Position numbers and translations under genes: made by a program
In this document: piece by piece, positions 9,265 through 63,120 of the stretch
Position numbering within the stretch: position 1 is the first letter of the stretch
Layout of the letters: each line of letters starts with the position of its first letter
Notes under the pieces: model-generated
What the model saw: only the letters and a program-made list of their open reading frames with translations
Told to the model about the DNA's origin: nothing
Databases searched by the model: none
NCBI GenBank assembly: GCA_963669155.1
Contig: OZ022577.1
Location: 33,363,850 to 33,427,849, forward strand
From: Arbacia lixula
Lineage: Eukaryota > Echinodermata > Echinoidea > Arbacioida > Arbaciidae
Direction: 5' to 3'
Length of the DNA stretch: 64,000 nucleotides

Positions 9265-9345
<81 letters not shown>

Positions 9346-9663
9346 TGGGGGGGGGGGTTAAGGAACAGCGAGAGAGAATAAAACTGGGATGGGGATATGA
9401 CAAGAATGAGATGGAAAAGGAAGGAGACAGAGTCTACATGTAAAAGAGAGGGACAGAGAAAGAAAAAACAATGGGAAAATGAGAGAAGTGTAGAGAGAGA
9501 AGGATTAAGAGATAGAAAGAAAGAGAAAAGGGAAAAGAATGGGAACAGAGAGAGAGAAAGAGAGAGAAGAGATGAAGAGAGAAAGAGAGGGGAGAGAGAA
9601 AGAAATGGTAGAGAGGTAGAGAGAAGAAGGGGGAGAAATATGTATAAAGAGAACTGGGTATAA

Positions 9664-9734
<71 letters not shown>

Positions 9735-18700: not shown

Positions 18701-19695
18701 AATCGATAGATATGCCTCTGCCACTAAAATCAATCCTCTATGAACAGAAAAATTGTATGTTTGGTTGAAATTGGACCACTGAATTCCTAGTCCCCACCAC
18801 CAAAAAAAAAGCATGTCTTGGCCATGTTTTTTTTTAGTTTGTTGATCAAAAACCTCAGAGAAATTTGACCTCTTACATCATCAATCTATCTCATCCATGC
18901 ACCATGTTTGGATGAAAATTGGGCTACTGAATTCTAGTTATTGTGATCGAGATCACTTTTGGGCAATTTTGGTTATTTTTGCACATTTCACTGACCTTTG
19001 ACTTTGGTCTGAGTTGACTGAATTTACATAGGTCATTGGTTTAATGAATTACAGAGAGGTACTTTGGAGAAAATCTGTTTAAAACTTCTCCAGACACTGC
19101 ATAAACCGATCCCAGACTTTGTGGTGGAGCCTAACAATATACTAAATAAAATAGACAGTGGTAAGATAACAAATGAGTATGGATCACAAATAGTTAATTA
19201 ATCAATTACTTCCAAATGTTTGCTCTTGTTCTCTCATTCTGCCAGGGAATCCTACAGGAATACAAGTGCTACTCGTTCATCCTTTCACTCTCCCTCTCTC
19301 TTTCTCTGTCTGTCTGTCTGTCCATCTCTTTCTCTCTCATTGTCTCATCATCTCTCTACTTTCCTGATTTTTCATTATTTCTTTGTCATTTGTGGATCAT
19401 ATATTATCAATCTATCTATCATCGTATCTCATCTTCTTGTAAGGGTCTGAACCCGAGTGTATCCTAATAGACACATGAAAGATGGCCTCCCTTTTAGAGG
19501 TATTCATCCACCCATCCATTCATCCATTCATCAATATATCTACCCATCTATTCATCTATCTATCTATCTATTCATCCAGTCATCCATCCATCCATCTATC
19601 CATTCATCAATCCATTAATTCATCCATCCATCTTTCTACCCACCTACCCATCTATCTTTCCATCCATCCATCCATCTATCCATCCATCGATCTAC

Positions 19696-19730
<35 letters not shown>

Positions 19731-21644
19731 CCCATCCATCTATCCATTGATCAATCTACCAACCTACCCATCTCTCTATGTATCGACCCACCTACTCATC
19801 CATCTGTCCATCCATCCATCCATCCATCCATCCATACATCCACTGATCTCACCTTCTTGTTGAGGTCTGGACCTGAAGGCATCCTGGTAGACACATGGAA
19901 GATGACCTCTACTGTGGAGGTAGCATAATAAGGCGCTGTCTCACCGGTGCTACGGTTCTTCTGCAGACCACCCAGGAAGCCAGGGTGAGTACCCAGGTCA
20001 ACCTACACAAATGATTAAATAAACATCGATAAATGATAGTAATAATTTTTAAATTTTTACATGATGTACCACGCAGCCACATTCAGATTTTGTTTGCTGT
20101 TCTATCTGCTTCTGGTCTAGTGTACTAGTGTATGAGACTGGAAGTAGACTTAAAATGCAAAAAAAACAAAAAACAACAATAGTGCATTATGGAAAATTGA
20201 ATGAATATCAATGAATTTATGTAGAATTCAATATAAATGGATAAATGAATAATATAACTGAATCAATTATCAAAAGTCATAAAATAATAACTGTGAAAAA
20301 ATTTAATAAAAATATAATACACAATCGGCAGGACACTATTCACTTTCCAGATATGTTTTCCTGTTATAGTCGTTTGAATGACCAATAAAAAGAAATTCTT
20401 GACATGCAGTGATAAAAAGTGTGAAATTTAAATCTATCACCCTAAAATGTGAATTTCTTCTTATCAAATATTCTGTGTGGAAATGAAAAAAATTCCAGCA
20501 GCAACAGAATCAAAATATGACAGGTGTGATTAGTCTCACCTCCCAGCCGAGACCAGAGATGAAGTTCTCATAGGCGTGGCTGCCCCCGCTGTTCGACAGG
20601 ACGGACTGTTTGTCCTCCTGGCCCTCAGCCACGTACAACACAGCGATCTTGTGCGTCTCACGGCTGCCCATAAGTCATGGGGATACCAGAAACAGGGCAT
20701 TAATTCATCGTTGCGAACTTAAATGATGGTGATTTCATTAGATGGGCAACTCCTTGGTTTTCGCTGAGATTATGTATGTTTATTATGTTTCCTTTATTGT
20801 TTTTGAATGACTAATAAAGTGATCTTGAAAAACAAGTGAGGAATTAACATTTCTTTAATTTTTCTTTTCTCATAGCTTTGCATCAATGACTTCATTGTTT
20901 GTTTCAGCAGTATACATTCTATTCAGAGCTACATTCACTTCACGTGCCATACTGATGATTTTGTGCACACGCTACGCATGGTCTACAATGGATCAGCGTG
21001 GTCAACTTTATATTTGTCTTATGCACTGATAAGTGTCGGTCATAAAGCACAGAAATACAGCAAACTACGTGGAACAAAGCTATGATTGTTGGCAAAAATC
21101 ATAATAGAAATAGATTTATTACCGATCACAGATTCTTCTATTTTTTAAAGGACCTTGTTTTTTTGCTGCAAATGCAATATTTTGTTGAGTGAAAACTAAG
21201 TGGAAGTATTACAGTAAAGAATGAGCAACATCTTAACCATTGTAAGTTACATTATAATTGAAGCTACAAATGTCTTTCTTTGTTCTTTTTATGCAGAACT
21301 TTACAGGGTTTTTTTTAAATGGACTCACCATTGTCTGGAGTCGAGATTCTTGAGCTCCCGTGAAAATTGCTCATTCTTCTTCACAATGTCGACCTCATCT
21401 CTGCAACGGGGAACAAAAAAAACCCAAAGTTTGTTTAAGATGTAAATCACATGGTCATAGGGAGAGACAGAGGGGTAGAAAGAGAGAAATGGGCAAAGCG
21501 AGAGAAGAGAGGAGAGAGGTTAGACAATAATTCAGAGAGAGAGCAAGAAGGGGGAGAATATAAGAGAGGATAAGTGAGAGTGTTAAAAAATGCACAAAAG
21601 AGAAAAACAAAAAGAACAGGACTGTAAAAAGAAAGAGGGCAGAG

Positions 21645-21711
<67 letters not shown>

Positions 21712-24700
21712 TGGATCACCTTTTTAACCATCACAAAAGAATCTCATTCATTTTTGGAGTGCAACTCAATGAATGGTTACATTGTGTAACAGGACAGAAA
21801 TATGTATTCACCTAAGGTGTGGAGAGGGCAAATGCCCTTGCCTGAAAAAAATGTATTACTCCAAACAAAGGATGCACTGACTCATTTCCTGTCATGCATC
21901 TAAATAATCATGTGTACTCAAGAACATATCTTGGACACTTTCAAAAATGTACCACTCCCAGAAAGCAACAATGCCATGACGTGTGAGCAAACATGTGAGA
22001 AATTGGCAAGACTATCAGAGCAATCACAGTGAGGAGAAAATATTGTGTGCCGATACACATCTTTGAAAAGACTTGCACAAATTGAAGAAACAGACATATA
22101 GACAAGACTGAGAATTCAGGTCGATTCACACTAAAGAGATCTGCCATTGCCATTGGTGGCTTGAAGTTGGACAAAATCATTTTTCTGCTGCATCAACTCA
22201 AAAAGATCATTTAATTGAGCAATTTGTAAATGTAAATGTAAATGTACATGTAACTGGAAATGTCCATTTCCTTCTACCTATCTTTACATACATTTTGTAT
22301 AGAGACCATTGTGGTTATACATGCCTTAACAATGAAAATTGTCATCATATATCATTATTAAAGGGAACAGAGAGAAAGTTCAGTCTGCCGCTTTGTCGCC
22401 TTTAACTTCACATCATTTAAACCTATAATTTATCGAACTACCATGGTAACTGGGAAAAATGCTCGCGCTAATAGGCTATTTCCATGGTTACACTGTGGGA
22501 CGGTACGTTACCTCTTATCCCAGCTCATCATGCCCAGCTGGCTGATGAGCTGTCGACACAGGTAGAACTGAGACTCTGGCTCCGTGTGCTGGGTCTCCCA
22601 GCATTCCTCAGCTATCATGCTGCACAGAAAAAATGCAGAAAAACAAGACAGACATTAATACATAATTTCAGACTGAGGTTCCATGTGCTATCACACTACA
22701 CAGAAGAAAAGCAGACAGACATTAATACATCATTTCAGACTGAGCCTCCATGAGCTATCAGGATAAACATGAAACCTTGAAAATGAATTGAATTCCATAA
22801 AAGCAGAAAAATCTGAAACTATCTGGTTAACAATTAAACAAAAAATTAGACAAATTAGGAGGAAAATATTATTTCTTGAAAATGTCATTACAAGCACTGA
22901 TTCCTGATCACTTAGCTTCATGGGCAACTCCATTGGTCGAAGATGACGTACTGAATGGTATTGTCATTGTTCTTGTGTAACATGTACAAACAAGACAATA
23001 CTCAAAGCATCAATTGTCTATACTCGATCCAAGGAGCAAACATACGTGGCTAGTGATTCAAATTTTAAACCTCTCCACCTCCATGGTACCCCCATAGACC
23101 CACACACCAATACTAACCCTCATCATAGACCTACCTCTCCACCTCTCTGTAACACTCCATGACACCCCATAGACCCACACACCAACACTAACCCTCATCA
23201 TAGACCTACCTCTCCACCTCTCTGTTACCATCCATGGCACCCCCATAGACCCACACACCAACACTAACCCTCATCATAGACCTACCTCTCCACCTCTCTG
23301 TTACCATCCATGGCACCCCCATAGACCCACACACCAACACTAACCCTCATCATAGACCTACCTCTCCACCTCTCCATAGCGCTCCACATACTCCGCCTCC
23401 AGGTCACACTGCTTGAGGAGAGCCCCCATGGCATGGCGCTCCATGTCGCTGCACATGTCTGCTGGGGACGGGAAGGGCAGGTTGAGGGGAATCCCCGGTC
23501 TCAGCAGGCACTCTGGGCTGGTGAAGCCAATGTACTGCTGCAGCTGTATGTCAATGGCAGGTCAGAATGTTCAATTGAATCATTTGGAATACTGTGTGTA
23601 TAATGGTATGAGTTCATTTGGCAATATTGAAGACAATACAAGAGAAATGCCGGCCTACAACTGGTATTGCCAATCGCATGCTTCATTTTGTATTTTAATG
23701 AAATACAAGTCGGAAAATCTTGGAAGTACTGGGACTTCAACCTGCCATCTACTGCTTCCAGGGCAGCAACTTAACCACAAGGCCATTTCCATGACAAACT
23801 TTTCAGACTTTTGTGTACAGCTCAGTATTGAATTATTTAGGAAATGGTAATTACATCCACGCACAAATTTGTAACCCTTGCCCATAATCTAGAATCAATA
23901 ATGTCCAAAGTATGACAAATTAATCCTGGTTAACTCTAAAAAGAGAGCACCACTTAATGACATTTTTGGAGCCCCTTTCACGCATGAAACCCTTACCAGA
24001 TAGGTCACGCATACTGTTTGTCATATGTTTAATCCTTTGCTATCAAATATAACTTCGACATAAATTTTGTGGCATTCAATAAATATTTAACTTATTTCCT
24101 GAAAATGTTGGTAGCTTTACTGGTTCATGTTTTCATGCCTTATTGGACACGACAAATGTCTCAAATTAGCATCCTTACCAATAGCACGACCCTCCTTCTT
24201 GATCTTTTCAATGCCAAACAAAATGCCTCTCTATGGGATTTGTGTGTATAGATTGTGAAATAATTCCCGAGTGGCACAGCGATGGCTAATGTCCTACCTC
24301 GTTGAGTACGTCCAGTGAGTCGCCCTCTTCATGCCAGGACGGGACAGTGTTGCGAAACCTCCTGTTGCTGTTGTTGACGATGTCGACAGGGGGCTTGCGA
24401 GACTTGGGTGCGATCCAGAAGACTGCGTCTGTATTCTCCTCAGTGGGCGGGGCAATGGGAGGATTCTTTCTCTCAACTGTTGGGGGAGGGGGAAGGGGAG
24501 TGGGAAGGGGAGGGATGAAGGATGAAGGGTAGGGGGAATTGATAGATACCTTGCTATTAGGCTGACATAGCAACCTGTACATAAAATTTGAAGTGCTTTA
24601 GCTACCTTAAAAAAATACACACCAATGTTTTTCGAGGTTGGCACATTGCGAACAATATTTTCTTTTAAATTAAGCAATAGAGAAACAGGAAAAGATAACC

Positions 24701-27503
24701 TAGTACAAACATTTTCTTTCAATTTACTTCAGTGAGTTACGGAAACAACCAGAGTTGTACCTACCTAGTCGTGTGGCCTGGACTTTGCAGTCCGCTGGTC
24801 CGTAGATGATCCTCCCATCCCAAGCAAACTTGCCTGCCACGTTCCTCACCACAGCACGGATGTCTGAGGTAGCCAAGGATAGATTCGACTCTGAGCCGTC
24901 GTCCTGCGGTGCAAGAAATAAAGTGAATCTTAAAATAGATTTTATGCATACCAAACATATTTTTTCTATGCATATTTGCTTTCCTTGAGGTGTAAAATTA
25001 TGTTAGGTTGAGGGTAAGTATCCTACAATCAAAGAGCAATGGGACCCAGGTTTTTTATACAATGGCACTGTATTGATTATATGTTCTTCAGTCTTTACCA
25101 CTACTACTCCTTACCTTGAAATTGTATATGACATAAGTGGAATAAATTGAAACAGAAATCAAGAGTGACACCTAGCGCAATCTTACTAAAGGCGAGATCT
25201 GTATTACAGAGAGAAGTGGTGGATCGTTTATCGGATCATAAACAATGACATGGATGTCCAGGTAATTTAATTGATCTTTTATGTTAGTTAAGCTCAAACA
25301 GAAAGAAACCGCGGGTGACACCTCATGTCATTTTACCAGTGGTGGGATCTGTATGACAGAGATCAGCGCGGCATCATTGTAGAGGAAGAACTGAACGTTC
25401 TCCGACTCAAAGAGCCTGGGCGTGATGTCATCCGTGTCAAAGGTCGGGAGGTCGTCGACCTCGTTGACCAGGGAGGTGATGCACGCTGGCCCCCCACCCA
25501 GGGGAAAGTGGTGCAGCTTATCTGTCAGATGGGTCAGCACCTGGTGAGGGCAGAGAACAATTGGGATCATCATCATTATCATCGCGATGTTCTTTGTATA
25601 TTTCTATGGTAAGAGCGTACTTATGAATACTATTTCAAAATTATTATCAGTTGCGCCAACACAATGCATTAAATTTTGTACTTCAAGAGATAAGAAAATA
25701 GAAATAAAATATATCATACCACAATTTCTTTTTCTTTTTTAGTTTCCACATAATATTTAAGTCATTAATGTAAATCATTACACTAACATAAATCATTAGA
25801 CAATTGTTCTAAATAAATGATTTGCATTTTGCAAAAAGATAATACAAATGTTTAAGTAAATGCATTCGGAAATTTATGCATAGAGATGTGAATACAAATA
25901 ATTTTCAAAATATATCATGAAGTTATCATGCTGAATAAATCTTCCATAATCATCTGTAATGATTATATGTAGATCTTAAATTTGAGGTGTTCTTTATGTG
26001 TTTTAACCATGCCTTTGCATTCCTGTTGTGTTGTGCAAGGTTTACTGTTGTATAGAGAGGAGACTATGCTTACTGTTCTTGCTGTTAGCCTCGTGAGTTC
26101 CGATGAAAAGGAAGATTGCATTTGGTTCGGGGGTAGAGACTGTTCTCCTGCTATGTATAAGAAGTAGTATAAAGAATACAGATGAAATATTCATAAGCCA
26201 TTATTGAATATAATCATGCATATTCAATGATAAGTCAAATAAATCATTCAGCTTCAATCTTTACAATAATGTCATAATCAAATGTTCTTTGAATGTTTCA
26301 ATGGTGAGAGAGGACTCATAAATACTATTTAGAAAATAGTATTGATGAATGTCATTATCTTTCGTCTGCATCCGTCGTGTTGTCTGCCTTGATACCTTTG
26401 TGCTCTGCAACACGAGAGCTTAAATGCACTCTCAAAGCAATGATGCTAGGTCGTATTTGGGCGGGGGAGATTGAGATCAATCTGCCCCGCCCAAACATAA
26501 AAGGAATGTGTGTGTGTGGGTGTGTTTGCGACACAAACCATCCTTAAAATGTATTTTGAGAAATAGAGGGTGTTAGGTTGCAGGACAAGGTGCAGGGTGA
26601 TCTATCAGGGGGTGGGGATGGATTTAGGGATGGGGATGGGCTGGAAGAGTGGGGGGGTGAACAGGTGGGGCTATTATACCGCTCCTCATCATATATGTCT
26701 TCAGAGAAATATAGGGTGTTGTGTTTAAGGGTTGGGTGCAGGGTGTGTTTATATGAGGTTGGGATACGGTGTGGGGTCGGCTGTTGCACTTACCGTCCTC
26801 AAAGAGGTAGTCAGAGAAATCCGGGGCATTGTTTTTGAGGGCGGGGTGCAGAGTGTGTCCATCCTTGAGGGCATCCAGGGTGATGTGAGGGTCATAGTCG
26901 GGCGACGCCAGCTCAGCAAAGTTGACGATGTAGCGGCTGTCTGCTGGCACACCCTCAGCCGCTGTCTGCAGCACCTGGGTGGGAGTTGGGGTGGGGTAGG
27001 GGGAAAAACAGAATGAGAAATACAGTCAAACCTGTCTACAAATAGTAATGTCTTTAACCCTTTCACTACCATAGGCGCACAAAATGTGTTGTAAGTAAAT
27101 GGACGTTTCCTGCCTTGTACTGAGAGGGTTAAAAGCCACTCAACTCAAATCCCTTTAGAGCAATATGCATGTATTTGTGCCTGTCTTTAAAGAGGACCTG
27201 TCCCTTTAGGACGGGGGGGGGGGGGGGGGGGGGGGCGGGGGGCCTTTATAGAGAATCTTGACTGAACCTCCAAATAAATACCTACACAATAAACATTTTA
27301 CATTCAGTTCCAAACAATAATCTCATGATTGTATATGTAGTTTGCTTCCGTTATACAATCTCCATACCATGGGATACATGCGTCCCACAATCTTAACCAC
27401 TGTTTTCCTTTATCTTTAAAGGGTGCAACTATTCAAGTAACATTGCAGTTGTGAACAAGACAACAACATCACCATAAAAGAGGACAAACACATGCTGTGA
27501 TGT

Positions 27504-27540
<37 letters not shown>

Positions 27541-30500
27541 AACCTTGAACACTGTGTGTATGAGTGGCTTGCTCTCCCGCTTGGTCTTGCTCTCCGTGCC
27601 TTCTTGTAGCGAGGAGGGAGGGACCGCCATACACCACTCACACAAACAGAACATCAGAGATACAATCAGCTGGAAAACAGAAGCAAAGAAAGATCACATA
27701 TCTTCACAATGTTAGCAATGCCATTTTAGGACTAATGGGTGACATTGAAAAATTGGACAAATACATGTACATTGGAAATCAGTTTTCTTTCAGGGAAAAA
27801 TAATAAAAATTTAGGACATCGCACCAAAAAAATATGATTAAAAGAGAGGCTATAATATCGCTGCCTCACAACCTTCTTGCAAATTTTCCTCCATTGAATT
27901 AAAGACCTTCACATTGTTAAAACATTCATAACCTACCTATTAGTTAATCGATTTAGCTCATACACTTTTTGATTGGTTTCTCTGATATCTCCTTTAGGAC
28001 CAGAATTGCCCTTTAATGAATGACGCCGTCTGGTATCTCACCTTTCTGTCCTCTTCCTGTTCAGTCATCTCTGTACTCGATAAGAGGCTGGCTATCGTCA
28101 TGGCGATGACCTGGACCAAAGACACAACATTACACTTACTAACGGTCAGAATATTGCTAGAGCCGAGCAATACGTCCATCAATACTATCAAGTAAGGTCT
28201 GTTCTGTCAGTCTTCTCCCACCAAGAATATCCTCCAATGCTGCGAGCTCAATGTATCCCGTATCCATTTGTGTGTCAAAAAAACTTCTATCTATGGCTTC
28301 TGTGTACAATAACTGTGCCAAACTGCATAAACAGCACATAAAAGGTTAAATTGCGATGTGACGCGATCGTCGTTCACAATGAATGATTTTGCAAAGAACC
28401 CTTCAACAGATGCTACAGGTACTGTAGATATCAATGCTTTATCAATGTCATGTGCATCTTCCCACTCATAACCTTGGAAACCACATAACAAATGTAAAAT
28501 GTTCCCTGTTAGATGATGGGGCCCACCATAATGACAGAACTATTCACCTGTGATCACAAGTCCTCTCCTCATTTGATATCAGTATGGAAGAAAATGACTT
28601 AAGATTTCAGTATTTCAGAAAACGACTAAATTAGGAGGCACTTCCTTGGTCTAATCCTGAAATCAAGTGAGAACAGGACCAGTAGCTACACCACAATGGT
28701 ACTGCAGTGATAATGGGTTCCATCAGTAAATCATTACCACGCATTTCCTGTTCTAAATGCAACGGTGTTCAATTTCATATGATCCGTGACCATAAGTGTA
28801 ATGAATGGGGCAATTAACCCTCTCGGTATCAAGCTTTAAAAGCCCCATATCAATGACAACTCAGTGACACGCACTGGTAGCCCCATATCAATAACAACCC
28901 AGTTTCCTGACTATGGGAATGAAAGTGTTCAATCAAGTGAATAGAGCAATGCTTTATCAAGTGATCAGTGATTGTAAACAGAGGAAGTTACATTTATTCA
29001 TAGGTCTTTCGGCTACCATGATTGCCAACGACACTGAAGAAGGAAATGGAGAGTAGCTGCAAAGGACTTACCTCGATGATCTTCTTTGGTGCTTCTGGGA
29101 GGTGTCTTCGTAGCCTCTCTGCGTGATCGCAGATGACCAGCAGCATGTCACACGCCACCTGGCCGACCTGCTTGTTATGCAGCTATACAAACAACAGAAA
29201 CAACTGTCATATAGTTATATGAGTCACCTTATATTCCATCTTCTCAATATCTACCTTCACATAAAATAATCTCTTCTGTCACATCAGCATGTCACAGGCT
29301 ACCTGGGGTATATGCTTGTTATGCAGTTATACAAACAGAAGAACACAAAGTATACTCCTGTTAGTCATATTAATCATTTTATATTCTATCGTCTTGATAT
29401 CTCCCTTCACACTGAATGAACTCTCCAGACTGATTCATAGGGAAGGTAGCCCATTTGCAGATCAACATATTAAATTGTTTAAATCCAATTAAAAAACATG
29501 GAAGAATATAAATTACACAAACTTTTCCCCAGAGCAAAATTACATTGCATTTTGAGAGTAGTGGTTCCTGTAGCTTAGAGACCTGAGACTGCAATAATGT
29601 TTATCATGGCTCTCTACATCACAGTCATGCATTGATACCAGCAATGCCCCACTGACCGACGCATGGCATACTGACCAAGGTAATGGGGTAAATGAATGTA
29701 GACCATGGTCGCTGGCGCACTGACCGGGGTTATGCGGTAAAATAATGTAGACCATGGTGGCTACGACACAGTCTTTCAAATGAACAGATTTTTAATTTTC
29801 CTGAAAAGGTTTGTGAAGCTATGACTGAGAGACTTCCGACATGTCATCTTTAGGGTAAATTGCTGATCCATGTTGAATCTCATGAGTTTTGTAAAAGGGC
29901 TACACTGCCCTTTGACCTCGTACTGACCTTGAGGCTGGCAAGCAGGACGTTGATGGCCTCCTTGATGCGTGGATGGAAGGTCGTGTGGACCAGCTCTTCA
30001 TAGATAAAGATGCCCAGCCCGCAGAGGGCGGTACATCGAGCCTCGCAGTTTGGCTCCTTCCTCCCGCACTTCAGCAGGATGCTGATCAGGTGATCCTGGG
30101 GCAATGGCACAACACAGAGAGATCAAAATATGATATCTGCCTAAAGGTGTCGTGTTCCCCTTCGCAGAAAGATATCATCCGATTCGTCATACCGCATATG
30201 AGGAGAAGTCGCTCAAAATGCACCATGCAGTGACATCCAGGCATTTTGTGCAGTTATACCCACTTCTGGTCGCATGAACTAATACATTCACTCTGAACAT
30301 GGTCTTTTGTTACACAAAATTTGAAAATTGGAAAAGCATCCTTTCAATTTTGTTCTGGATGTCGTTGAGTATTGCATTATGGGAAGATATTACCCTACAT
30401 GCGGTATGGAGAGATCATTTACTAAGCCCTGATTACTGTGAATGCACACGAATGCACAGACAAGTTTTAAAGTTGATCTTGCTTTTTGAATTTTGTGCAC

Positions 30501-33500
30501 CAACTCTTGCATGGAATGCAACGTGAGATTACTTATTGACTAATGAAGTATCACTGCAGCTGCATGCTAAAAACAAACAAAACATTAAGAAATATAAAAC
30601 AATAAACTGTGGAATGTAGTCAAGAAAAATGTTAGTGTTTCAAATGTAAATCATAACGTTATCTTCAGTGGTTCAATAAATGTTAGCACATGTTAGCAAA
30701 ACACTTTTCAGGGAAACTATGAATGCATGATTATGAGCTCAATGATCGTGATCATTTTGATGGGTATGAAAGTACCGTAATGTGAAGAGGTCTCACCTTG
30801 ACTGGCTTTTTGTCCTTTGGTGACTGCTGGAACATAATCACATTATAGAATATGATTACGATCTTATCAATCAAGATTAATCCAGACAAATAAAACATCA
30901 CTTGAGTGTGAATGGGTCTTACCTTGAATGGTTTGATATCCTTGAGAGAGAATTAAAGCACGGCCACATTGCACAACATAATTATGATCTGAATCAGGGC
31001 AATTATTGAAAAAAGGTAGCAAGTCAGCCCACTGTGAACGAGTCTTACCATGACAGGCTTTATATCCTTTCACGCACACCAAAATGCTAGTATCCTTGGA
31101 AGAGGGCGGGAAGACAGTCACATTACAGAGCATAATGATGATCTGAATCAGCATAACTATATCAAAAGGTTGAAAAATAAGCCCTATGTGAACAGGTCTC
31201 ACCTTGACTGGCTTGATATCCTTACACACCAGAGTGCCAGTTTCCTTGGGAGAGGGCTGGACAACAGTTACATTACAGAGCTTGATTATGATCTGAACCA
31301 GTGTTATTATTTGAACAAGTCGAAAATTAGACCAATGTGAAAAGCGCTAAATAGATGTATTTAGAAGAGGGTTGGAGCGCAGTCACATTGCAGAGCATAA
31401 TTAAGACCTGAATGAGATATACTACCTTGATTGGCTTGATATCCTTGCACATCATGGCGTTACGTGTCCGTGGGAAAGGGTTGGGTCATGGTCACATTAC
31501 AGAACATAATTATGATTAATAATTGTGTTAATTCAGTCACGTTTAACATCACTTTAGTGTGAACGGGGTCTTACTTTGACTGGCTTGATATCCTTGCACA
31601 CCATGGTGCTTATGTCCTTGGGAGAGGGCTGGAACACGGTCACATTACAGAACATGTTGGGGAAGCACACTAGAGACCCAAGCAGTGACAGAGCCTCGAT
31701 CCGTGGGGCCTGCAGGTAGTGATATCAAAGAAAAATCATAACATTACGAAATCCTCCATCTGCAGGAAAAGTCGATGCACTTCTGAAATCACCAAACCGC
31801 TGCTGTGACAAACTGCACTATATGTGAGGTGAGATCCAAGCATCTATCAGAGGTCCCTATACTATGTGAAAAGCAACACATATTATAATTTTATCAATTT
31901 TACTGATGGTCCTGCCTGGAATAATCAGTACATTTGAGCAAATCACACACTCCAGCTGTCTACGCACAAAGCTTGATTATTCCTGACTCCATTATCCCTT
32001 GGTATTGAATCAATGAATGTCACGGCTCTACATTCAAATCTGTGTCCACCAATACACTCACAATAATGCTACAGGCCTCTCGGATTGTAGAATGTGTTGA
32101 GGAAACAGCAAAACTGACCGACACAAATACACCTTGTGATTGTGTGGTAAAAACAATAATAAACAAAGACAATGTTCTTTTTCCTTCACGGCAGTCCTTA
32201 AAGAAAGGTTATTTCCTGTTTTACAGCTGCTCAAAGTGCATTGTGGTCTTGATCACTCCTTTGTACTGCAACAACAAATATCAAGCATTTCTCTACCGTC
32301 CTCCACAGGTAATGCACCTCAGTTTGATCTTGAGATAAGAATTTTACACGGTTCACATTGTAACACATTTGGGTATGTATCCAATGGAGCAGGAAGTGTA
32401 ACAGAGTAGGGCTCGCAATACTAGAATAGCAACCCTGAGACAGACGTTTACGATGCTCAGTATTTGCTTTTACTATAAAAGGACATGTATTAAGGTATAA
32501 AAGAGGTCAGAGGTCGATTCATACCAGAGGAAGGATTGTGGTCATGTTATGATAGGAAATCAGATTTGATCCTCTGTGTATACAGGAAGATGAAGAGTGT
32601 AAGCGCTAAACCTACACAACTCAACAACAAAAGGTGGCAGTACGTGGTTTATAACACATGGTTTAAATGTCTTTTTATCTATTTAAAGGGCATATACTGT
32701 ACTGGGAAGGCAAAAAAAGCCTTCAAAATGCAATTGTTAGAAATCTTCTCGTCAATGGTCTTAAATTCATGCATTGTCTATTTTAGAAGCTTGCTGAAAG
32801 TTATTTGCCCTCAAATGATCTACATTTGGAGTGATTAAATCACAAATCCTCAAAATGTTCGGGCCGAACATTTTGAGGAGTTAATCAATAATCATTAATT
32901 ACTCCATATGTGGATCATTTGAGGGCAAATAACTTTCAGCAAGCTTCTAAAATGTTCAATACATAAATTTAAGACCATTAGCAAGAAGATTGCCGACAAT
33001 TACCTTTTGAAGGTTTTTTTTGCCTTCCCAGTACAGTATATGCCCTTTAAAGAGATTTGTAAAGAGGAGTTAGATACAAAGTTATTTCGATAAACTTTTG
33101 TTTAAACTCCCATTGTTCATTATAAACCTGAGAAATTGGCAATTCACACCTGATGTGTGAAAAGCCTCAAGGAAGTGCAAAGTGTGCATTGCAGGAATAA
33201 CATAGAAAGTAAACCACTCATTTTATTTAATTTTATCATGACGGCTAATATGCCAATATCTACATTGTATTTCACATCAATAAATCCAGCCTCACATTGA
33301 AATTGAAATTGAAAGGGAAGTAAGTGAAACCTTGTCAAATATAGCCAATAGATTTGTATATGTACACTGCATAAACATTTGAGATCCTGGATGAAATAAT
33401 CCAGTGGACAACATTTTTATACACAACATTTACGTTCAGATGCGAAATTAAACATTAAGGTAGAGGAAAAGATACAAAAAGGAGAAAATTAAAAAACTGA

Positions 33501-39500: not shown

Positions 39501-42500
39501 ATGCCTAGTAACCGTCTCCACACCACCACGGCAACGTCGGGATGCCAGCCGATACGGTTGCCTCCTGACATCACGCTGGCATCGGGACAGCGCACTGGGC
39601 CTGGCGGACCTACAGAAGGTGTGTATGCATGGGGAGGGGGAGGAGGGGGGAGAGCAGTCAAAACACGAAGGTGACATCCCAGCTGGCTTATATTCTGACA
39701 CAAAATGAAAAGCTATCCCGAATGTTCTTGTTACAAATGAAACATCTACCATTGCTCAGATTTAACTTAGATTTAAAGACAGTTTGCCGACATCGTAGGT
39801 ATTCAAATACAATTTCCCTTTGTTTGACATGCCTGAACACCACACAGCTTGCATCCGTTAATTTGACAACCTGTAAACATCATTCGATTCTACTTATTGT
39901 TGGCATTTTCCATACCCCTTTTAGAGTTGTACATCAAATGACAAGTGCAAGTGCAGAGCTTTTCCTTAGTTCACTGCAAGGAGAGTTAACCCTCTCAGTC
40001 CTATAGGTGCATGGAATGTGTAGCAATATCAAACAGGATTTCCTTGCTTAGTATTGACAGCATTAAGAGTGGTTACCTGACTCATTCTTCTCATTGGAGA
40101 GCTCCAGCTGGTCCTCAATCTGAATTTGGCCGTCCTCCTCCTCCATCATGGGTGACTCCTTGGTAGGGTCGACGCCCATCTCCCCATTACCCCCCACCAC
40201 CCCTAGGAGGGGCGTGGTCTCCCTCGCACTCCCACCGTCAGACTGGCAGGTGCTGGAGCCCCCCGGGGAGAGCCCATCTGAGGTGAAGCTCCGGGGGGCG
40301 CTGGGCGACGCTTCCTCGTAGCTGAAGAGAGGGGTGCCCACCGTGGTGGGGGTCTCGCCCCCGCTACCGTCAGCCACCGGGGTACCTGCTTCGCTCCTGT
40401 GTGTATGTGTGAATAAGAGTGAAATTGGAATGGTTTGTGCAGTGAAGAAAATACATAATGCAAGAAATAGCCCATGTTATGTTTACTGTTTGATTCATGA
40501 CATCATAAGTTTATATTGAAGAAATGTCATTGGGTTTCCATCAGTACTCTGCAGTGTAGCCGTTTGTGTAAGCCAAGAAATTACTCCTCACAAACATAGG
40601 CCAATGAAAATATACCTATATGGAGCCCATCACCTACCAGTGATTGAAGCGGCTGTTGACCGCCGAGGAGAGAGAGGGTAATGACCCCCAGGTTGATCTC
40701 AAGCATACATAATATTCATGTGCATACAATGACCATATACCACAGTTTCGTTCATACTAAACGCCACCACCTACCAGTGATTGGAGCTACCGTTGCCTGT
40801 CGGGGAGAGGGCAATGACCTCCTGGTCGATCTCCTCAATGAGGCTGCTGGTGGGGGTGAGGCGGTTGTTACTGTCCGTGGGCGTGGTGTGGATGGAGTCG
40901 GGCATTGGCACCTCCAGGGAGCTGCTGTCAAGGCTGAGGTCGTCTGGCTGGGTGATCAGCGGCGTGATGCTGGTTTGGCTCAGACTCAGGTCGTCCAGGA
41001 GCTTGTCAGTCTCGCCTAGGGATGGTGGTGGTGTGGTTGGGGGTTAGAGGGAGGTATAACCACTCATAGTTCCTACACTGATGTATAACAATAGGCTGCT
41101 TCCATTTTGCATGTGTCGAGATGCCATTTTCAATGCACTACGCATGCATCATTGGCTCACTATCTGATTTCGAACACGCATTGGCCCACTCACGAGGGAT
41201 GTTTCCACCGAAAAATTTTAGTTTTTGCTAGCAATGGATCGTATTCATTGTTTGTGTTTCATTGTGATTGTGTATGCCTTTCACTGTATTGCTTTTTTCT
41301 TGCAAAAAACTGAAAAACAAACACATATCAGTCATCATCATCACATGATGTGATGACGTCCTCAAATTGACTTGCGTTTGTTTACTGGAAACGAAACAGA
41401 TATCAACAGTGGTTGAACTAAGTAGTGAACATGTTGATGTATGCCTTGGTTCACCCAAAACTAAAGCAGCCTAAATATATATTGTGAAACATCAAAGGTA
41501 AGGGATTGCAGAGGTTAAGATTTTGGTACACGTAATTACTGCAGAATCATTCTGTCAAAATTATGGGCCCTGGCCTCATTTAGAGCTAATTCCTTCAAAT
41601 GATCCTAAAATCAAACATGGGTAGGATCCATGGTCACGGCAGGATAGGTTTTCCATGATAATGTGTCATGTAATCTTTACCAATGTGACAGCATTACGTC
41701 TGGGAGTGAAGGAGTTTATCTTAAAGGCCCCCAAATGAGGTATGATAAGACATAAAATAACACTGTACTTAAAGTTATATATCATTTAGAAAAGAGTGAC
41801 ACTGACTTTAAACATCATTTTGAAACAAAATATCTGTTATTAGTGACATGAAACAACGCATAATAAAGTTATTTTTTTTAATGTGAGATGAAACACATGT
41901 TGAACTTACATCAACATATGAATGCATCACACAGCATATTTCTTAATGAAATAAACAGACCAGATATATGATTCCTTCATAGATATAATCATTCATTCAA
42001 CACCAAATAAGTGAGAAGAACAAAGTTATTTGATTGATTTTGCAAGGTACAATGAGGACATGATTTAATGGAAGAGGAACGCAGTGGATATGGAGTGAAA
42101 CACAGAGAGAGGTGAAAACAGCAAGCGGAAGGGGCAGAAAGAGATAGTGGGCTAGATAATTTGGGTGAAAGGAAGATCCTCATACCATTCTCAGGAGGTA
42201 ACTCCTGTCTACATGTGGTGACCATTGGGAATGTGGTGGATTTCACCATTCCTTCTCTCTCACCATCCTCTGTATTCGACCATGGCAGTTAGAAAGAGAG
42301 AAAGATAATGAATGGAACTTAGAACATAATGTTAGTGAATCACTCCTATGCCCATGAATCACAAATAACAAGTTGCAACAGATAGCAAAGATTGATATAT
42401 ATTCTAACTGTTTGTATCACACAAAACATCACTTCTACCTATTGCAAATGCGAGCCAATGATATGTTTAATTTTGTATTGTTACCATACATCCACATAAG

Positions 42501-45500
42501 CTAGCCTCAATATCCAAGTACTGACAAATATGCAAGTTATGGTTGATTTCTATTGCAACTTCTTCGTGATACAAATTTTTGATTGATCAATCATAGCTCT
42601 TAAGGAGTTGGCTTGACTTGTCCAGACTTGTATCCAGGGTTGTATGTTGCATGTGTAAAGGAGTGCCATGAGCAATGTGCACAACATGAAATGAAATGAT
42701 AACTTGAAGAAATAGTGAAGTGAAACATTGATATGTATCCATTTCTTTAAAAATAACTTCAAATGATGAAAGACGTGTTTGAGACCTTACATTTATCCTC
42801 ACATTTCAGACCTAACCAACATTGTGCATGTTATATACACTATGTATTAAAAACAACTTTTTACATTGATGCTGTCACAAAGTATCGATTTTCATCACAA
42901 CAGTGGGTGATTTCAATCATTTGCCGTAATTATTACGTGGTCAAACTCATTATACCATAGTGATTACAGAACCAAATCCAATTATATTGAATCCATGATG
43001 TTACATGTTGTTTTATATGGCATCCCACAGTTAGTACCAAATCCAATTATATTGAATCCATGATGTTACATGTTGTTTTATTTGGCATCCCATAGTTAGT
43101 ATAGGGTTAGTACACTGTTTGCGTTCAACCTCTGAATACGGGTCTGGGTAAATGAATAGCATACCTCTGTGCCTATGTAAGGCGAATCCGTCGAAGAGCT
43201 CCCCCGCACTGCTGCTGCGTGGGATCGGGCCGGCTGGCAGAGGGGGAGGGTCTTCCCTGTCGATCAGGGAAGGATCCACCGTCAAGGAGCGCTGCCGGGT
43301 CAGATTCGGGTGGGAGGAGTGCAACGATAGGTCACCTGGCATACCGAGAGGAGAAAGAAATAGGGCGCTGTATAAGTAATGGGGAGCATACTCACATAAC
43401 CAAATCACCTAGAATTTAAAAAAAAGAGAGAAAGAGATGGCATAAGTAAATATGATCAGCTTTTTCTACAGTGCTTTTTTTGTACTTGCCATTCAAAGCA
43501 CTGGATTAGCCTCAGGCCTTTGGGTTTAAGTGTCAAAATGCTACAGGCAACTTACATTACTGAGAGCATGATTTCTTTTACACACACACACACCCACACA
43601 CATACGTTTACGCATCAGGATCGGGTCTGAACAAACTCTCATTGCAGTGTAAGCGGAATAGCACCAAATGCCTACTCACATATACAAAAACAGACTGATC
43701 TGTACATGGCCTATTGCACCTGAAGACAAAACTTGATGGTTCAGGGGTTGAAAGGACCATGCTCGAGTTAATGTAGGGATATATGAAATGCAGGAGACAA
43801 ATTATATTGATCTCTGCAGAAATGTCATAATCCACTCTAGAAACATAACCCACAGCAGTGCCTTACCATGCTAAAACATTTAACACAACATCCACAACAT
43901 ATCTTTTATTCTAAGAGAGTAGTACTGTAAAACCGGTTACTTTTGCCTGAGTAAATTTTTTGCAGCACAGCATGCACACCTTCCACATATTCGCAGGATG
44001 TTATTTTCACACACAATAAATACTTGTCACTACAAAACAATCCACTCTATGCGTTACATGCGATGACAAAACAAAAATACATATTAAAGAAAATCACTGA
44101 CAAAGCCCCCAACGCGGCATTATCCTGAACATTTAACCCATTCAGGACCAAGTACCGCAAATATGTGGTTTGGGGCTGAAACTATTGACATCAACTGTTA
44201 AAAATAATCAAAGATGCATTACATGAAAAAGCATACATTTCGGCCCAAGATGAATCTATTTTGGGCATTAAGTGATATATATTGCCTTCATAATTGCACC
44301 ATTTCCGCTTCGAAGATTTGCCCCATCCTGCTCCCTATTGCCCAGACTTAATATGAACACATACCCCGTAGTCCATAGACACCTTCAATGCTTTAAAATT
44401 TAAACAAAAATCCATCTATTGCACAGCGCGGAGGACGAGAGACTGCCAAACCTTGTGGAAGTCTCCTAGTGTCTTACCGTCCTGATCTGTCTGCCGCCGA
44501 TCCCTGATGCGGGAGAGATCCCCCTGGCTGCCAATGGTGTTCATCTTGTTCCTCTTCCTCTCTAGCTCCTCCACGGTGAGACCCCCACCCACCACGCCCC
44601 CTCCTCCTCCTCCTCCCCCTCCTCCCCCACCGCTGTTGGGCGACGTGGAGTCGCACCTGCTCCACCCGCGGGAGAAGGAACGCTCGTGCATGCCTGACAT
44701 GGCGCGGCGGGTGAGGTCGCCCTGGTGGCCCGGCGCTCCCCCGGCAGTGCCTCGGAGACGCTTCTGCTTCTGCTCAGAGAGCTTGTCCAGCGGCAGGTTG
44801 CTCAGGTCCAGGTGGTAGACCCGGCGGGCCAGCACACGGGTCAGCGTCTCCATGGTTCTCTGGAAGGGAGAGGGTTAATCCTTTTAGTCCTTTAGGTTTA
44901 TCATGAGGGCTATTGCATGTCTACCACTCTTTCTTTGTGTCTTTTTCAGGTAGCAGTGCTTCATCAAAATTCTAACAAAATAAATTTTGGGGCCGATATT
45001 AAGAAAAACCTCGGACTGAAATATTATAAGTCCAAAGTTGAACATATGCTCAATGAATTTTGGAGGTCCACCAGAAGAAGGAGTTGCGAAAGGGGAGAAA
45101 TTGAAAGGTCAAAGGTCAATTGTTGAGACAGTGACTTACAAACCACTTCTTGGTGGTTCTTCCCAGTGGGTAAGGGAGGAGATAATATTAAAAGCCAGAT
45201 GTCAATGAGGGATCATACAGTGAATGACCTACACACCATTCTTGATCAATTCCTCTCGGTGGATCAGGGAGGAGAGAAATCAAGTCAAAGGTCAGAGGTC
45301 AGAGGTCAATGAGGGAGAGAGGTTATGAGACAGGAACTTACAGACCACTCCTTGATGAGTTCCTCCCAATGGGTCAGGGAGGAGAGAACTCGCAGGAAGT
45401 CCTCCCAAAGACTGGTAGACACTTGGATCTCCAGGTTAGCCTTGATCCAAGTCACTATCAGGGTCTGCAAGAAAATACATATAGTCATGTTTTGTGAATA

Positions 45501-48500
45501 AAAGTATCACTTACTCGAGGAATCACTTACTGCAAAACTCCACATCATTTCTCACGCTAGAGAAATACTGTTCTGTATACATGGTTACTGAAACAGGCAC
45601 AAACCTAGATTCTGCTAAAGTAATAGACATTGATAAATAAAACATTTTTTTTCCAGACCACATTTCATCTTACTGTTGCATAAGAAAGTCCATGTTGATT
45701 TGAGTAGGGATGAACTTGAGTGGACTTTCAAAGTGACCTCTACAGCCCACAATTCTGCAAAGACCAGGCAACTATTGGCTTACCTGAAAGAGGATGTGAG
45801 CGAGCTGTTGGCCCAGTGCCAGCCGAGGCTTGCTGGGGGTTCCCCCTAGGATACCCTCTGTAACCCGTAGCAACACCATCAACAGCTGCTCCCTGTAACA
45901 TCAGACAAGAGATTTCAATGTTTCTATGTTTAATTGTACAATTCATAGAATGTAAACATGTGCAATTCAGCCACTGGCAACAAAACATAACCTGCTTTAA
46001 ATACACTGTTTTAGTACTGTATTTACAAATTTCCTCAAAACTACGTAGTAACGTTATTACATTAAGCTTATTTCATGATTCAGTTTTAATGGGTGGCATG
46101 CACCCTGAATCTTTAAGTTGTTGCTAGTCAACCAAACCTTGGATAAGCTTTTGGGTTACTGTAAGTAACACATCGTTTGAAAGATGTGCATACAATTTGC
46201 ACACATAATGATAGTGATCTGTTTAATAGACCGTTTCATCGTTATGTATGCAAGTGTTACGTACGTCGTTCAAACAATACATTCCTATTGATAACCCTTA
46301 AGCTTGTCCGAGGTTTGCCCGAGTAGCAAGAAATTAAGAAAGAATTCCACCAAATTAAACTAAATCATGAAATATAGGTGAATGTCACAACTTGTTCCTA
46401 CACATTTGGTGTTAAAGTTGGGGGAAGTAAGCCGAAAACGGCTTATTGAAATGAGCCACATGAAATAATGGCACATAATGAATAAGCTCCCCTACCATGT
46501 GGTCTTGTCTAGCTTGACGTTCATGACGATGTGGCGGTAGCTGCCCAGCACTCTCCGACAGATATCCACCTGGTCTCTGATTGGCCGGGTCGGGTCAGGT
46601 GCCCCAGAGGCCCCTCCCCCTGGCTCCAGCAGGAACACATTGGAGGAATTGGTGATGAACACCTGGCAGACACAGGGACAACATATCAATGAGAAAAGTT
46701 AAATCAACACTCCATTCTCAATACGGTTTGTAACGTTCTTTAAATTAGTGTACTAAACTTACGATCATAAATGAATCATTGTGGGTTTTGAAAGTTCCAA
46801 ATATATGAATATGTAGCTAAAGTTGATATGATATAATATGATAGAAACTGTTATGACCTGCCATTCATAATTCCTCTTTTTACAGCATATCTTTCTTTAA
46901 CAGTACATATGTTTTGGCTGTATACTTCCATTAGTCTACCGTGGGCCCAGGGCGAAGCTAGCTGGCCAGCGTAAATGAGATTTGCTTAAAAAGATAACTG
47001 ACATTTACTTGCTGTGCATGACATTGTATGCATGCAAAGGATATATCTGCTATATGTATAAATATGGTTGGGTGGAAGTAAACTTTTTGAGAATGGTTAC
47101 AGTGAGCCGACTTCATACCTGGACCACCCTCTGCAGTCCTGCGCCCACATTGCACTTCTTCATGTCATCTCGGATGGCCTGGTTGATTGCACCAATGTAC
47201 GAGTTGCTCCGCCGAGCCTTGGTCCCGTCCGATGATGTTGAGGGGCTCTTGACCAGTGGGGGCAGTTTGGACTCGCCCGTCTGGACATGGGTGAGGGGTC
47301 AAGCACACAAGGCTCATGAGCATCAGATTCTCACAAGAGGACAATATCTCATTTTGTGAAAAAGAAGCATCAATATCATTGCCCAATTCAGCATTTATAT
47401 CTAATTACAATTCTTAATGTAATGTCACTTCCATAGTCAGGTCCTTAGTTTGATGGATATGCAGGCTGCCAAGACGCAAAAAAAAATCTATGCATGGGAC
47501 CATTTACTAAACACAAGTACCTGCACGTACGTGTGGTTGTAGCTTTTGTGAGGTCATAAGAATCTGTATGAAATACTGAAAGTGATGGAAAGATTTTGAA
47601 TTTTGTTCTTATTGTCACATAATTGAAACTGAAAAAAGGAATTACCGGAAGTTTTTCCTTCATTTTCTTTCAGTACATTGTATTTCCACCAGCAATGTGA
47701 CGTAAGCTTGGTCAGCATAATTTTCAAACTCACAGTTAACATATGGTCACCATGCATTGTTTTCAATGGCCAGTCAGTTGCTAGGCTCGAGGTCCAAAAA
47801 TGCCTGGCTGCCTGCAGCCACCTGTACGACCAAATCAATCTCGTGGGCAGCTCTGTAGCTGTTTCATCTCCATGATAACCAGGGTTCAGTGACCCACCTC
47901 ATTCTCTGGTAAGCCGGCAGAAAAGGTCTTGGTGGCCGTCTGGTGGGAGGGGCTATCCACCTCGGACACCCCGCCCTCATGCGAAGCCTCCAGGATGGAC
48001 GTAATCTGGGTGGCCAGGCAGGATGGCGGCTCAAACTTTCTAGCGTTCTTCTCGTTCTCCCCATCTCCTCCTCTTTCTCCTTCCTCCTCCTCCTCTTCCC
48101 CCTCCTCTGGTTCCTCCATGAATACAGGCTTGGACATAGAGTTCTGCAGGGAGGAGTGTAACAGGTTAGCGCTGCGATCACTGCTCCAATATGATTACAA
48201 ATGCAACCACAGCTTGGGCTGCTGTACGAAACTTTATCAGTACATTAATGCTCTTAGCAAGTACAGCCTTACCCAATATAAACAACCAAGACAGACAACA
48301 GACAAAGTCTGCCTCTTCCATGAAAATAGGCTTGGATATAGAGTTCTGTGAGGAGGTGTGTGATGGAGGCTATTGCGAACACAGCTTGGGCTGCTGTTAG
48401 AACTTTGAAATATAACCAGTACATTCAATGCCCTTACAGCCTTACCCAATATAAAAGACTAAGATGCACAAAAGACAAAAGGCCCCTATTGTGAACATCG

Positions 48501-51500
48501 GTTTCATGCGAACAGTGTACTAAACCTGTACTTACTTTATGGGACAACAAATAAAACAACATCAAACATTCATATTGATTAAATGAAATTGGATTTGTCC
48601 TCGGGATCACTTAGCTATATTGAGATTGTCCACAAAGTGATTACAGCAAATAGCTTCCGTATGAACGCAGCTTTCCTGGCACAATCAATGCCTTTGCAAG
48701 AACAGCCTTTTATTTTTCTTTGAAAAAGCTCTGTTCATCTAGTCATAAAATCCATTGAAAGAGAGGCAAAAATCATCACAGGCATTCAAATTTTGAAAAC
48801 ACAACTCTATGACTTAAACATGTATCTCATAAGTATAACTATACTGAGATGAGCAATGTCATGGATAAGCCACATATCTGCATGAATCAAGCCAATCTAA
48901 AATATCAACAGTATTGGGGCTGAATCACACTGAGCTCCCATGAGCCCATGGTAAGTATAATGACAGAAAACATGTACTGTCTCACCTGGATCCACTCATT
49001 GTAGACCTTGAGAGAAAGCTTGACGGCTTTGGATTCACTCATTGGCAGAAGAAAACCCTGGAGAAAGAGTAATACATAATAAACATCATGGATTTATATC
49101 CCTTTTGCACCAGATATAAATAATCAGAAAAGGTACATAGTACCTATCATATTCCACATACTAAGAATGTTGCTATATGATTGGTCGAGAGTTGATCACA
49201 TGATAAACCTAGGAAAAAAAGTTTGTTACACTCTAGGTGTACTTTTTGGTTTTGCTATTCTCTTCACTCCTCACAATCCTAACATGTGATCAATATTTTG
49301 AATACTCGCGAAATAAAAGTGCGTTACACTCGGACTATTAATTCTACGAACGCGTCCTCATGCGCGTTCTAACGCATGTTCCCCTTGGCAGCGGCTCGGG
49401 GTTAGGTAGAGAAATAAAAATTACTTTTGTACGTCAAATTGTCATTTTTAGTTTTTTTAATTGGTTTCAGATGTGGAATATAAAGCAAATAATCAACTTT
49501 TGGTTTCAAGCAATGAGACGAACTATCACTTCCGAGGCGATCTGAATGTATACGCTATCTTTCCTCAGCTGCGCTTTGGAAAGGTAGCTACATCCAGATC
49601 GCCTCGGAAGTGATAGTTCCTCCCATCACCCTCACCAAGGTTGATTATTTGCTTACTATTGTCTACCAGTGTCCTTATTCACCCAGCGAATGAATGAGTG
49701 AAGACAAGAATAGTACATGATTTGTCATAGGTGAAACCCTATCAAATGATGAAGACAAATGGAAGAGGCAAAAACACACACAAGAGAGAAGCGATCAGAT
49801 GACAGACAAAACAAAAGACACACATACACACACACACACACAAACAAATAAATCATCATACCCGAGACATAGCACTGACTGAACAAAGGTCATGCTGTTT
49901 CTGGTTGAGTAGACCATACAGGCAGATATACATACACACACACACAGACAAGTACACATACAAGTACACATACACACACAGACATGTACACATACAAGTA
50001 CACATACACACACAGACAAACATATACTAATCAGCCTACCTGGCTCAGCACAAAGTTAATGTCGTCCCTGGCAGAGTAGAGAATACAAGTACACTGTAGA
50101 CAGACAGGTTCACAGACACACAGCCAGACAGACATACAGACAACATAGACACAAACACCAATCAGCCTACCTGGCGTAGCACCTCCTGCACAAAGTTGAT
50201 GTTGTCCCTGGTAGAGTAGAGCACCCTAAGCACCAGCTCCCGCCCTGCCCCGGTCTCGGCCTCCCCAGGGAGAGGCAGGGCTAGGGAGAGGGTGCTGGTG
50301 GAGAGGGAGAGGGTGGAGTTGGGGCTGATGGTGGTGGCTGAGGAGGAGGAGTGGGAGTCGCCCCCTCCGCTGCCCCCATCCTTCAGGTGCATTGGGTCCA
50401 GCCGGCGGTCCAGCGAGTCCTTGCTACTCGTCTCATGCTTCTCATTGGCAAGATTGCTGCAGGTGGGTGGGTGGGGGGGGGGGGGATGAGGGGATTGAAA
50501 CACATTCAAGGAACACAATTCAGTTTCAAGGGTAGTTCTAGATTACAATACAGATCCTATAGTGCAGAGCCCATATTCATGAAACCTTACTAGCCTAGTT
50601 AGTTACTAATGATGCATGCAGCTGAATGCACTTTAGCAACTAACTAGGCTTAAGAAGGTTTTGTGAATATAGCCCCAGAACTAATATTTCACATACTTGA
50701 ACATACTTGTAAATGCTACATGCAGGACTCCACACTAATTTTTTTTCAAGGGGGGTCCGGACTTACTTTTTAATGTTTCTGTGTAAAGGGGAACAAACAA
50801 TATGGTCTTTGTAAAGAAGTGGTCACTGAGATTTCAGGGATAGCTTTGCCTCATACCAACCCTTGTTTCTACATCGGTGATAAGCATATTTTTGTTCAGC
50901 TAGAAACATCAGCCACATTGTAGTTAGTCTATCCATTATAGTTCTATATATTTCCAAATTTAGAGTCACCTGTTGACCATCACCCAGTCCTTAAACTTTT
51001 TTTTTTGCTTGAAGTTTACTTTAAATTCTAGTTTATTTGGAATCAAAACTATTTCTTAAATCATATTTCCATCTCTATTTGAAAAGCAGACAACACTGCT
51101 GTAAAAGTGATACTGCGGCTCCTTTCTGAGTTAGCACACATCGAAAGATCAATTCTGTGTTGCTATGACTACCTGTATGTCATGCTTGCTGACAAAATAC
51201 AAGTCTGGTTTCAGTTTTCATAACTCTGTATGATTGGAAACCTCTGAATGAATTATATTTGCAAATGTTTCCATCAAAACAAATCCGTAGTGATAAGTAT
51301 ATATGTAACTGTAAGGATTGCTACTAATATCGCTTCTTCTTTTCCTAAGGTTGCTCACAGCTGCCCACTGTAAATATATTCATAAATTTTTGCATGACAC
51401 TACTTATTGGGATGAATCTGCATATGAATCTATAATGAATAAGAAATAACGGCCTGTTTTCGATTTCACTAAAAATTTATTTGCAGAACCCATCGTTAGC

Positions 51501-60500: not shown

Positions 60501-61854
60501 AAAATGCTGAAACCCCAGTATGGGTATGAGTCAAACTCAAAGAGCTTCAACATAGACTTGTCAAGAATGCTTAGCACTATAACAAGTACATGTTGTGTAA
60601 TGCACACTGTCCTGTAGATCTACAGGTGTGTGTATTGTAATAGTTCATACATTCCACCCTGCCTTCTTATTACATTCTGCATCAGCTTTCAGAAATAATC
60701 ACACTAATAAAAAGGCATATAGTTTGTTTACACTGCCCCACATGTACATTCACATGTAGGTCAACACATATTTAAGTCTAGATGAATAAATGTGCATTTC
60801 CTAGAAATGTTACAAGCCCTCTCATTTATACCAAAGTCATATTTACTACATGTCTAAGGCAATGATCAATCTATGACTTGGTATCATGAGGGTTAATACA
60901 ATCAAAGCCAAGCCAAGCTGAGGTGGTTCCCCCAGAGAGGTTTCATTCAAAAGAAGCCCCCAGAAACACAATGGATGGGATTAACCCTGAAGGATTAGTG
61001 GTAGCTAAGCCCCCATGGACAACGACCTCTTCTAAGGGCATTCAGTACACACCCAGGCAAGCTGCCATTGTAGTTCTACCTGTACATGTTTACTTTATTA
61101 CTGTACGCTGTAAGCAAACATGAGCTGGTGTAAAAGAACTAGTCAACTAGCCCTCCATGAATCATTACAATCTCATTACATGTTAGTGGTAACAATTTGC
61201 CAATAACTTGTATACTTCAACAAATTTCAAATGATCTAACCAGCAATTAGTCAGACTGTTAACAGAATATTTTTCTATTATTTGTGTTAAATTCATTTAT
61301 GAAAAAATGCAATATCTTCAGAGATTCAATATGATATGATCTATCACCAATGTTAATTAAAACACACGCTAACTCTTCAAGTGCCATTGAGGTTACATAC
61401 AGTTTAAGTAGTAAATATAAAACCTATAAAAGAGCAGATGTTTATCTGGCACACAAAGGGTTAATGAATGATAATTTGTCTGAGTACTCGGCCGGCTCCC
61501 CAAACATCTAATTTGGGATGGTTGGCAACATTCATTATTGCTCTGTGGGGGAGTCTCTCCTCCTTGAGGTGGCTGGATCAAGGAAGAACTGAGATCCCCC
61601 CCCCTCCCCAAATTAAAGGGAACGTCCACCCTGAAGTTACGTTTGTTTGAATCATTTAAGCAGAAACATGAACGACTGCAAGTCCAATCCCCTAACTCTA
61701 AAGAGAACAGAGTGACGATCAATATCAATCGTGAATCACGTTGTGATCAACCGTAACATTTCGTATGACAGGACCTGAGGTGACAATCTCAATTCCGTTA
61801 AATTGATATGAACACCAATTTTAATTAATTATGGTGTAAAAAAAAGTGCCCGCC

Positions 61855-61904
<50 letters not shown>

Positions 61905-63117: not shown

Positions 63118-63120
63118 ACA

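Follow-up and report, generated by a model that had tools for sequence, protein, structure and literature searches.

The window, by which we mean the whole 64,000-nucleotide stretch of Arbacia lixula DNA analysed here, carries an orthologue of RALGAPA1 on its minus strand; the source genome comprises 607 Mb in 590 contigs. Three sea-urchin RALGAPA1 proteins were retrieved by a homology search adjusted for length, and protein identity is 83.0% with Strongylocentrotus, 82.2% with Lytechinus and 80.7% with Diadema, the Strongylocentrotus and Lytechinus proteins being 93.7% identical to each other. These values suggest a euechinoid that stands apart from the latter two. Spliced alignment of sea-urchin RALGAPA1 proteins yielded 40 exons running from 62400 to 2589, and the joined reading frame contains 2056 codons and no stops. 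One exon matched the solved RalGAP alpha-2 structure (PDB 9qwp), and a Pfam search with four single exons returned no family. The exon numbering of the initial annotation agrees with that of our spliced model (exon 7 = 50456-50171; exon 36 = 20002-19853). Upstream of the first exon found, a 130-bp direct repeat occupies 62859-63120 in two copies that are 98% identical.

2589..62400, minus strand: RALGAPA1 orthologue, 40 exons found (tblastn with P0001-P0003 and a spliced model), with both termini of the protein lying outside the model

Partial exon copies beside RALGAPA1 junctions

Self-alignment of RALGAPA1 revealed tandem partial copies, each combining exon, splice site and intron, beside exons 4, 7, 9, 13, 17, 21, 22, 24, 27, 29, 32 and 36. 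Such junction-straddling copies had initially been placed at 12 exons, and the clusters at exons 7, 9, 13, 17, 22, 24, 27, 29, 32 and 36 bear this out. The copy claimed at exon 21 is also recovered, as two alignments flanking the donor rather than as a single continuous one. The claim is weakest at exon 33: a copy reaching the exon can be accepted by eye, but the scored match, 63 columns long, 84% identical and at a distance of 67 bp, stops ~20 nt short of the acceptor, and this exon is counted as a junction case in none of the statistics below. Exon 4 (acceptor side, 54919-54591) is an additional case, absent from the initial annotation and outside its span.

54591..54919, minus strand: exon 4 acceptor-side copies, 144/157 bp apart, 68-71% identical
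49802..50223, minus strand: two exon 7 donor-side copies, 140 and 307 bp away
48106..48479, minus strand: exon 9 acceptor-side copy, 173-202 bp apart, AG kept
45124..45391, minus strand: two exon 13 donor-side copies, GT kept in both
40627..40833, minus strand: exon 17 donor-side copy, 133 bp apart, GT kept
35745..36116, minus strand: exon 21 donor-side copy, exon and intron parts in separate alignments
30725..31656, minus strand: exon 22 donor-side array, five to six copies with a spacing of mostly 126-150 bp, found at a single place in the genome
29138..29424, minus strand: exon 24 acceptor-side copy, 150 bp apart, copy without AG
26514..26858, minus strand: decayed exon 27 donor-side copies at distances of 110 and 256 bp, the more distant one weak (E = 7e-4)
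25154..25378, minus strand: exon 29 donor-side copy, 150 bp apart
23079..23386, minus strand: exon 32 donor-side 76-bp array with three further copies, 92-96% identical, GT intact in all three
22600..22769, minus strand: tandem unit of 67 bp on the upstream side of exon 33, scored part 22769-22640, extending by eye over ~20 nt of the exon
19406..19922, minus strand: exon 36 donor-side copy at a distance of 420 bp, beyond a CATC-type repeat, copy without GT

As claimed, the copies are mostly donor-side (exons 7, 13, 17, 21, 22, 27, 29, 32 and 36), with acceptor-side copies at exons 9 and 24, weakly at 33, and additionally at exon 4. Their number ranges from 1 to 5 or 6 per exon, in keeping with the one to six proposed, and is highest at exon 22. 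They lengthen the introns in which they lie, as had also been suggested.

The gene contains tandem repeats of other placement as well. In intron 19, a purely intronic array of a 157-bp unit, similar in size to many of the junction copies, spans 37977-38787 with ~5 copies at 93-94% identity, and an 11-bp repeat stands beside it at 38796-38880.

Age and splice sites of the copies

Identity of the aligned junction pairs ranges from 64 to 96%. As initially proposed, copies of different ages are present, from near-identical to decayed; the exon 32 array, with its 76-bp unit at 92-96%, is young. When summed by hand over the pairs, which overlap, and with exon 32 left out, 785 of 999 exon columns (79%) and 545 of 776 intron columns (70%) are identical. 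This difference fits pairs in which one copy is held and the other is free to change. The smallest strong periods of the RALGAPA1 junction clusters are 56-173 bp, the lowest value being due to the exon 36 CATC-type repeat.

Similarity by chance or through inverted repeats was rejected on the basis of controls: three block-shuffled versions of the gene yielded one cluster each as compared to 18 in the real gene, and at equal thresholds we found three inverted pairs within 700 bp, none of which touches an exon. A mobile element, a retro-copy or an assembly artefact is a highly improbable source of the copies. Intron 22 does harbour dispersed repeats outside the exon 22 array (30174-30420; short, with at least 43 other genome places at 72-90%), which would suit a mobile element, but the exon 22 array, the one array searched, matched only itself in the genome. 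The copies also include intron and stand in tandem, and since 11 of the 12 junction clusters have a best identity of only 69-84%, duplication of haplotypes in the assembly is unlikely.

Decayed splice sites had been claimed for some of the copies, and both decayed and intact ones are present: GT is kept in 14 of 17 mapped donor copies and AG in one of three acceptor copies, the mapping covering all cases other than exons 21 and 33. At exon 22, the true donor (31575) scores 2.6 with a simple matrix of our own, and four of the five mapped downstream copies (31202, 31048, 30922 and 30796) score 4.3-6.4. The retention of GT and the higher scores at exon 22 are what one would expect if the copies were maintained by selection to serve as decoys or as alternative splice sites. 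We consider this very unlikely: extension of the exon to the copied splice site meets stops in 19 of 20 cases, which excludes alternative exons, the remaining one, at the first copy of exon 27, has no GT, and the extension length is a multiple of three in 6 of 20, the share expected by chance. Judged from these reading frames, the copied splice sites appear useless for the protein, and the donor copies that keep GT are potential cryptic splice sites.

Junction copies in other genes and their placement

For comparison we drew 30 exons from the 73 myosin-head matches and 30 from the 91 matches to dynein DHC_N2, and took loci with 1.5 kb of sequence on either side of the exon. The comparison covers these two families only, picked before the outcome was known; a further family, PF00122 (17 matches), stands outside all counts. 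At E <= 1e-3 a pair overlaps 15 of the 60 control exons, and by the stricter cluster definition 13 of the 60 have junction copies. The feature is thus not confined to RALGAPA1. With neighbouring exons annotated too, the count is 13 junction clusters per 121 exons, and intron-only clusters are frequent beside the control exons (49 in 180 kb, a figure in which overlapping loci count double). Cluster counts exclude pairs that were of low complexity (trimer diversity < 0.4), shorter than 40 bp or separated by more than 700 bp; clusters in overlapping loci are counted once in the 121-exon count and in all placement tests. The edges of control exons are approximate, being domain or tblastn edges shifted to nearby splice sites. 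L011 was retained although its domain match contains stops, and L068, with a 17-nt overlap, is included among the 13 of 60 but is not a junction cluster in the placement tests.

We also annotated DNAH1 by tblastn over 43.6 kb, obtaining 54 stretches that cover amino acids 788-3871 of 4207; the last of these ‘exons’ (amino acids 3852-3871, 50%) probably represents one of the copies in the young array. Five loci inside this gene (L039, L054, L055, L060 and L069) were moved from the loci set and counted under DNAH1. Junction copies affect 12 of 40 exons in RALGAPA1 and 3 of 54 in DNAH1 (Fisher p = 0.003, RALGAPA1 having been chosen for the feature). The young array of DNAH1 (L076, ~3190-4064; G000:C4, from about 7950690) is donor-side, measures ~875 bp, starts inside an exon and consists of a 136-bp unit at 94-97% identity.

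The expected number of junction clusters was obtained by placing clusters at random and accepting a position only if the coding sequence stayed whole, i.e. if the cluster was intronic or extended across a single junction by at most one unit. In RALGAPA1, 12 of 17 clusters lie at junctions as compared to 2.1 expected; if the pair around exon 28 is included, which with its 695-bp distance is not a tandem copy, the figures are 13 of 18 and 2.4. DNAH1 has 3 of 12 at junctions versus 3.0 expected, one cluster (30660-30882, 92%) that overlaps an exon with unrefined edges by 15 nt being counted as intronic, and the remaining dynein and myosin loci have 15 of 58 versus 7.6. All controls together give 18 of 70 versus 10.5, a 1.7-fold excess (p = 0.012, uncorrected). 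These figures replace earlier control estimates (13 versus 3.4, then 13 versus 6.4 expected), the value of 3.4 having ignored neighbouring exons, overlapping loci and placement geometry. The initial expectation that the copies exceed randomised positions therefore holds for RALGAPA1, modestly for the controls taken together, and not for DNAH1.

Junction copies may also remain visible for longer than intronic ones. When copies were simulated with a slow rate of evolution in the exon copy, detection of junction and intronic copies was near-equal up to 0.14 substitutions per site (0.85 and 0.81, respectively) and then diverged, to 0.69 and 0.48 at 0.18, 0.47 and 0.16 at 0.22, and 0.36 and 0.01 at 0.26; summed over ages, the advantage is 1.2-fold. 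Corrected by this factor, the expectation for the controls rises to 12.2 (p = 0.046), and by a factor of 2 to 17.7 (p = 0.52). At a weight of 3, RALGAPA1 is still in excess (13 of 18 versus 5.5 expected, p = 0.0003). Among young control clusters, with age judged on the intron part alone (>= 90% identical), 9 of 19 lie at junctions versus 2.9 expected (p = 0.0009; p = 0.036 at a retention weight of 2), and clusters below 85% or too short to score show no excess (8 of 41 versus 6.4). An excess would be masked if some low-identity intronic clusters are simple sequence, or if some ‘intronic’ clusters in the partly annotated loci adjoin unannotated exons.

The counts for RALGAPA1 and for the young control clusters are those predicted if exonic or junction DNA is a hot spot of tandem duplication, with exon-internal products being purged and those across junctions remaining; nucleosome-sized re-replication, or template switching where exonic nucleosomes are positioned, could be the cause. 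Many cluster periods fall at 130-190 bp, and the accessible text of the amphioxus reports gives 150-160 bp for globin repeats of this kind (PMC3087553, PMC3902484). Nevertheless, DNAH1 matches its expectation, the controls overall exceed theirs only 1.7-fold, and periods overlap between junction clusters (43-235 bp, the 695-bp pair left out) and intronic ones (36-278 bp), larger units straddling junctions more often by geometry. We regard such a hot spot as a serious but rather unlikely explanation. The more general proposal of a process seeded at exon borders likewise has the young control clusters in its favour and the corrected control p-value and DNAH1 against it: a junction-seeded process is possible, not established.

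Relation to known systems and proposed origin

Tandem exon duplication, as in mutually exclusive exons, likewise leaves exon sequence repeated in tandem within an intron. There, a whole and open exon with both splice sites is duplicated; the RALGAPA1 copies comprise only part of an exon, and the tested extensions are not open. Intron gain by tandem or internal gene duplication is reportedly the subject of studies by Gao and Lynch (2009) and Hellsten (2011). According to the accessible part of a review of this process (PMC3443670), it shares with RALGAPA1 a local intragenic duplication that copies splice-site-like sequence, but there an exonic, AGGT-bearing segment makes a new intron, whereas the RALGAPA1 units already contain intron columns as well as exon and lie inside existing introns of the model.

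The closest counterpart is found in amphioxus, where ‘mirages’, tandem repeats across exon-intron boundaries, are described in Adh3, two globin genes, TnC and PGBD5, with units of 10-72 bp in Adh3, 150-160 bp and 157 bp in the globins, and 60 and 108 bp in PGBD5 (PMC3087553, PMC3902484). The accessible text of these papers reports that mirages leave splicing undisturbed and that they are unstable, BflGb6 varying in length between haplotypes and Adh3 being somatically unstable. Homogenisation of the inner copies, but not of those at the boundary, is a further trait of mirages. As far as that text describes them, the RALGAPA1 copies are alike in having tandem units over the donor or acceptor boundary, both kinds of boundary being hit, partial exon copies in the intron, many remaining AG and GT dinucleotides, and a similar unit length. 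They differ in belonging to an echinoid rather than a cephalochordate, and in affecting 12-13 of 40 exons of one gene. The initial statement that no case on this scale had been described thus needs qualifying: the kind is known, and we have not seen this many reported in one gene in the accessible text of those papers. Literature searches, judged by titles and abstract openings and with subscription papers mostly outside their scope, found no report of mirages in echinoderms. The RALGAPA1 case is real, and represents, at a notable density, a kind known from another phylum.

We think it probable that mirages are products of a general local tandem duplication, of which the junction-spanning ones are harmless and stay visible longer. 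In the genes sampled from this genome, a minisatellite-type process would make units of ~40-280 bp. If such a duplication fell entirely within an exon, it would alter the protein and be removed; one wholly in an intron or across a single junction would, as the intact reading frame suggests, be harmless, because the copy joined to the intact exon would supply the splice site and leave the spare copies in the intron. These would then decay, with the exon copy held by selection, and old junction copies would be recognisable after intronic copies of the same age had faded, as the simulation supports. RALGAPA1 would represent the rich end of the genes sampled, and an additional, two- to threefold junction preference, whatever its cause, may exist.

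A common process is favoured because 13 of 60 control exons are affected with intron-only clusters frequent nearby, because the period ranges of junction and intronic clusters overlap, and because the controls depart only modestly from uniform placement and DNAH1 does not depart at all. The higher identity of exon than of intron columns, the stops in the extensions, the single genome match of the exon 22 array and the undisturbed splicing reported for amphioxus mirages also speak for it. This explanation by general duplication is weakened, since longer visibility is worth only 1.2-fold while the RALGAPA1 excess survives a weight of 3, and since the control total exceeds uniform placement even after correction. 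Furthermore, visibility alone is insufficient, as it predicts an excess of old copies, yet the excess in the controls is among the young. A more specific conjecture, which we consider unlikely, is that small tandem duplications arise preferentially on exon-edge DNA, at two to five times the uniform rate, through an exon-sensing DNA or chromatin mechanism with nucleosome-sized units, here and perhaps in mirage-bearing deuterostomes.

Mirages may be a common by-product of tandem duplication from which introns could grow and new splice sites could arise. Chromosome-scale genomes of echinoids, together with RNA-seq, make any junction preference of duplications directly countable, and the excess of young copies, if genome-wide, would indicate a mutational process that senses exons.
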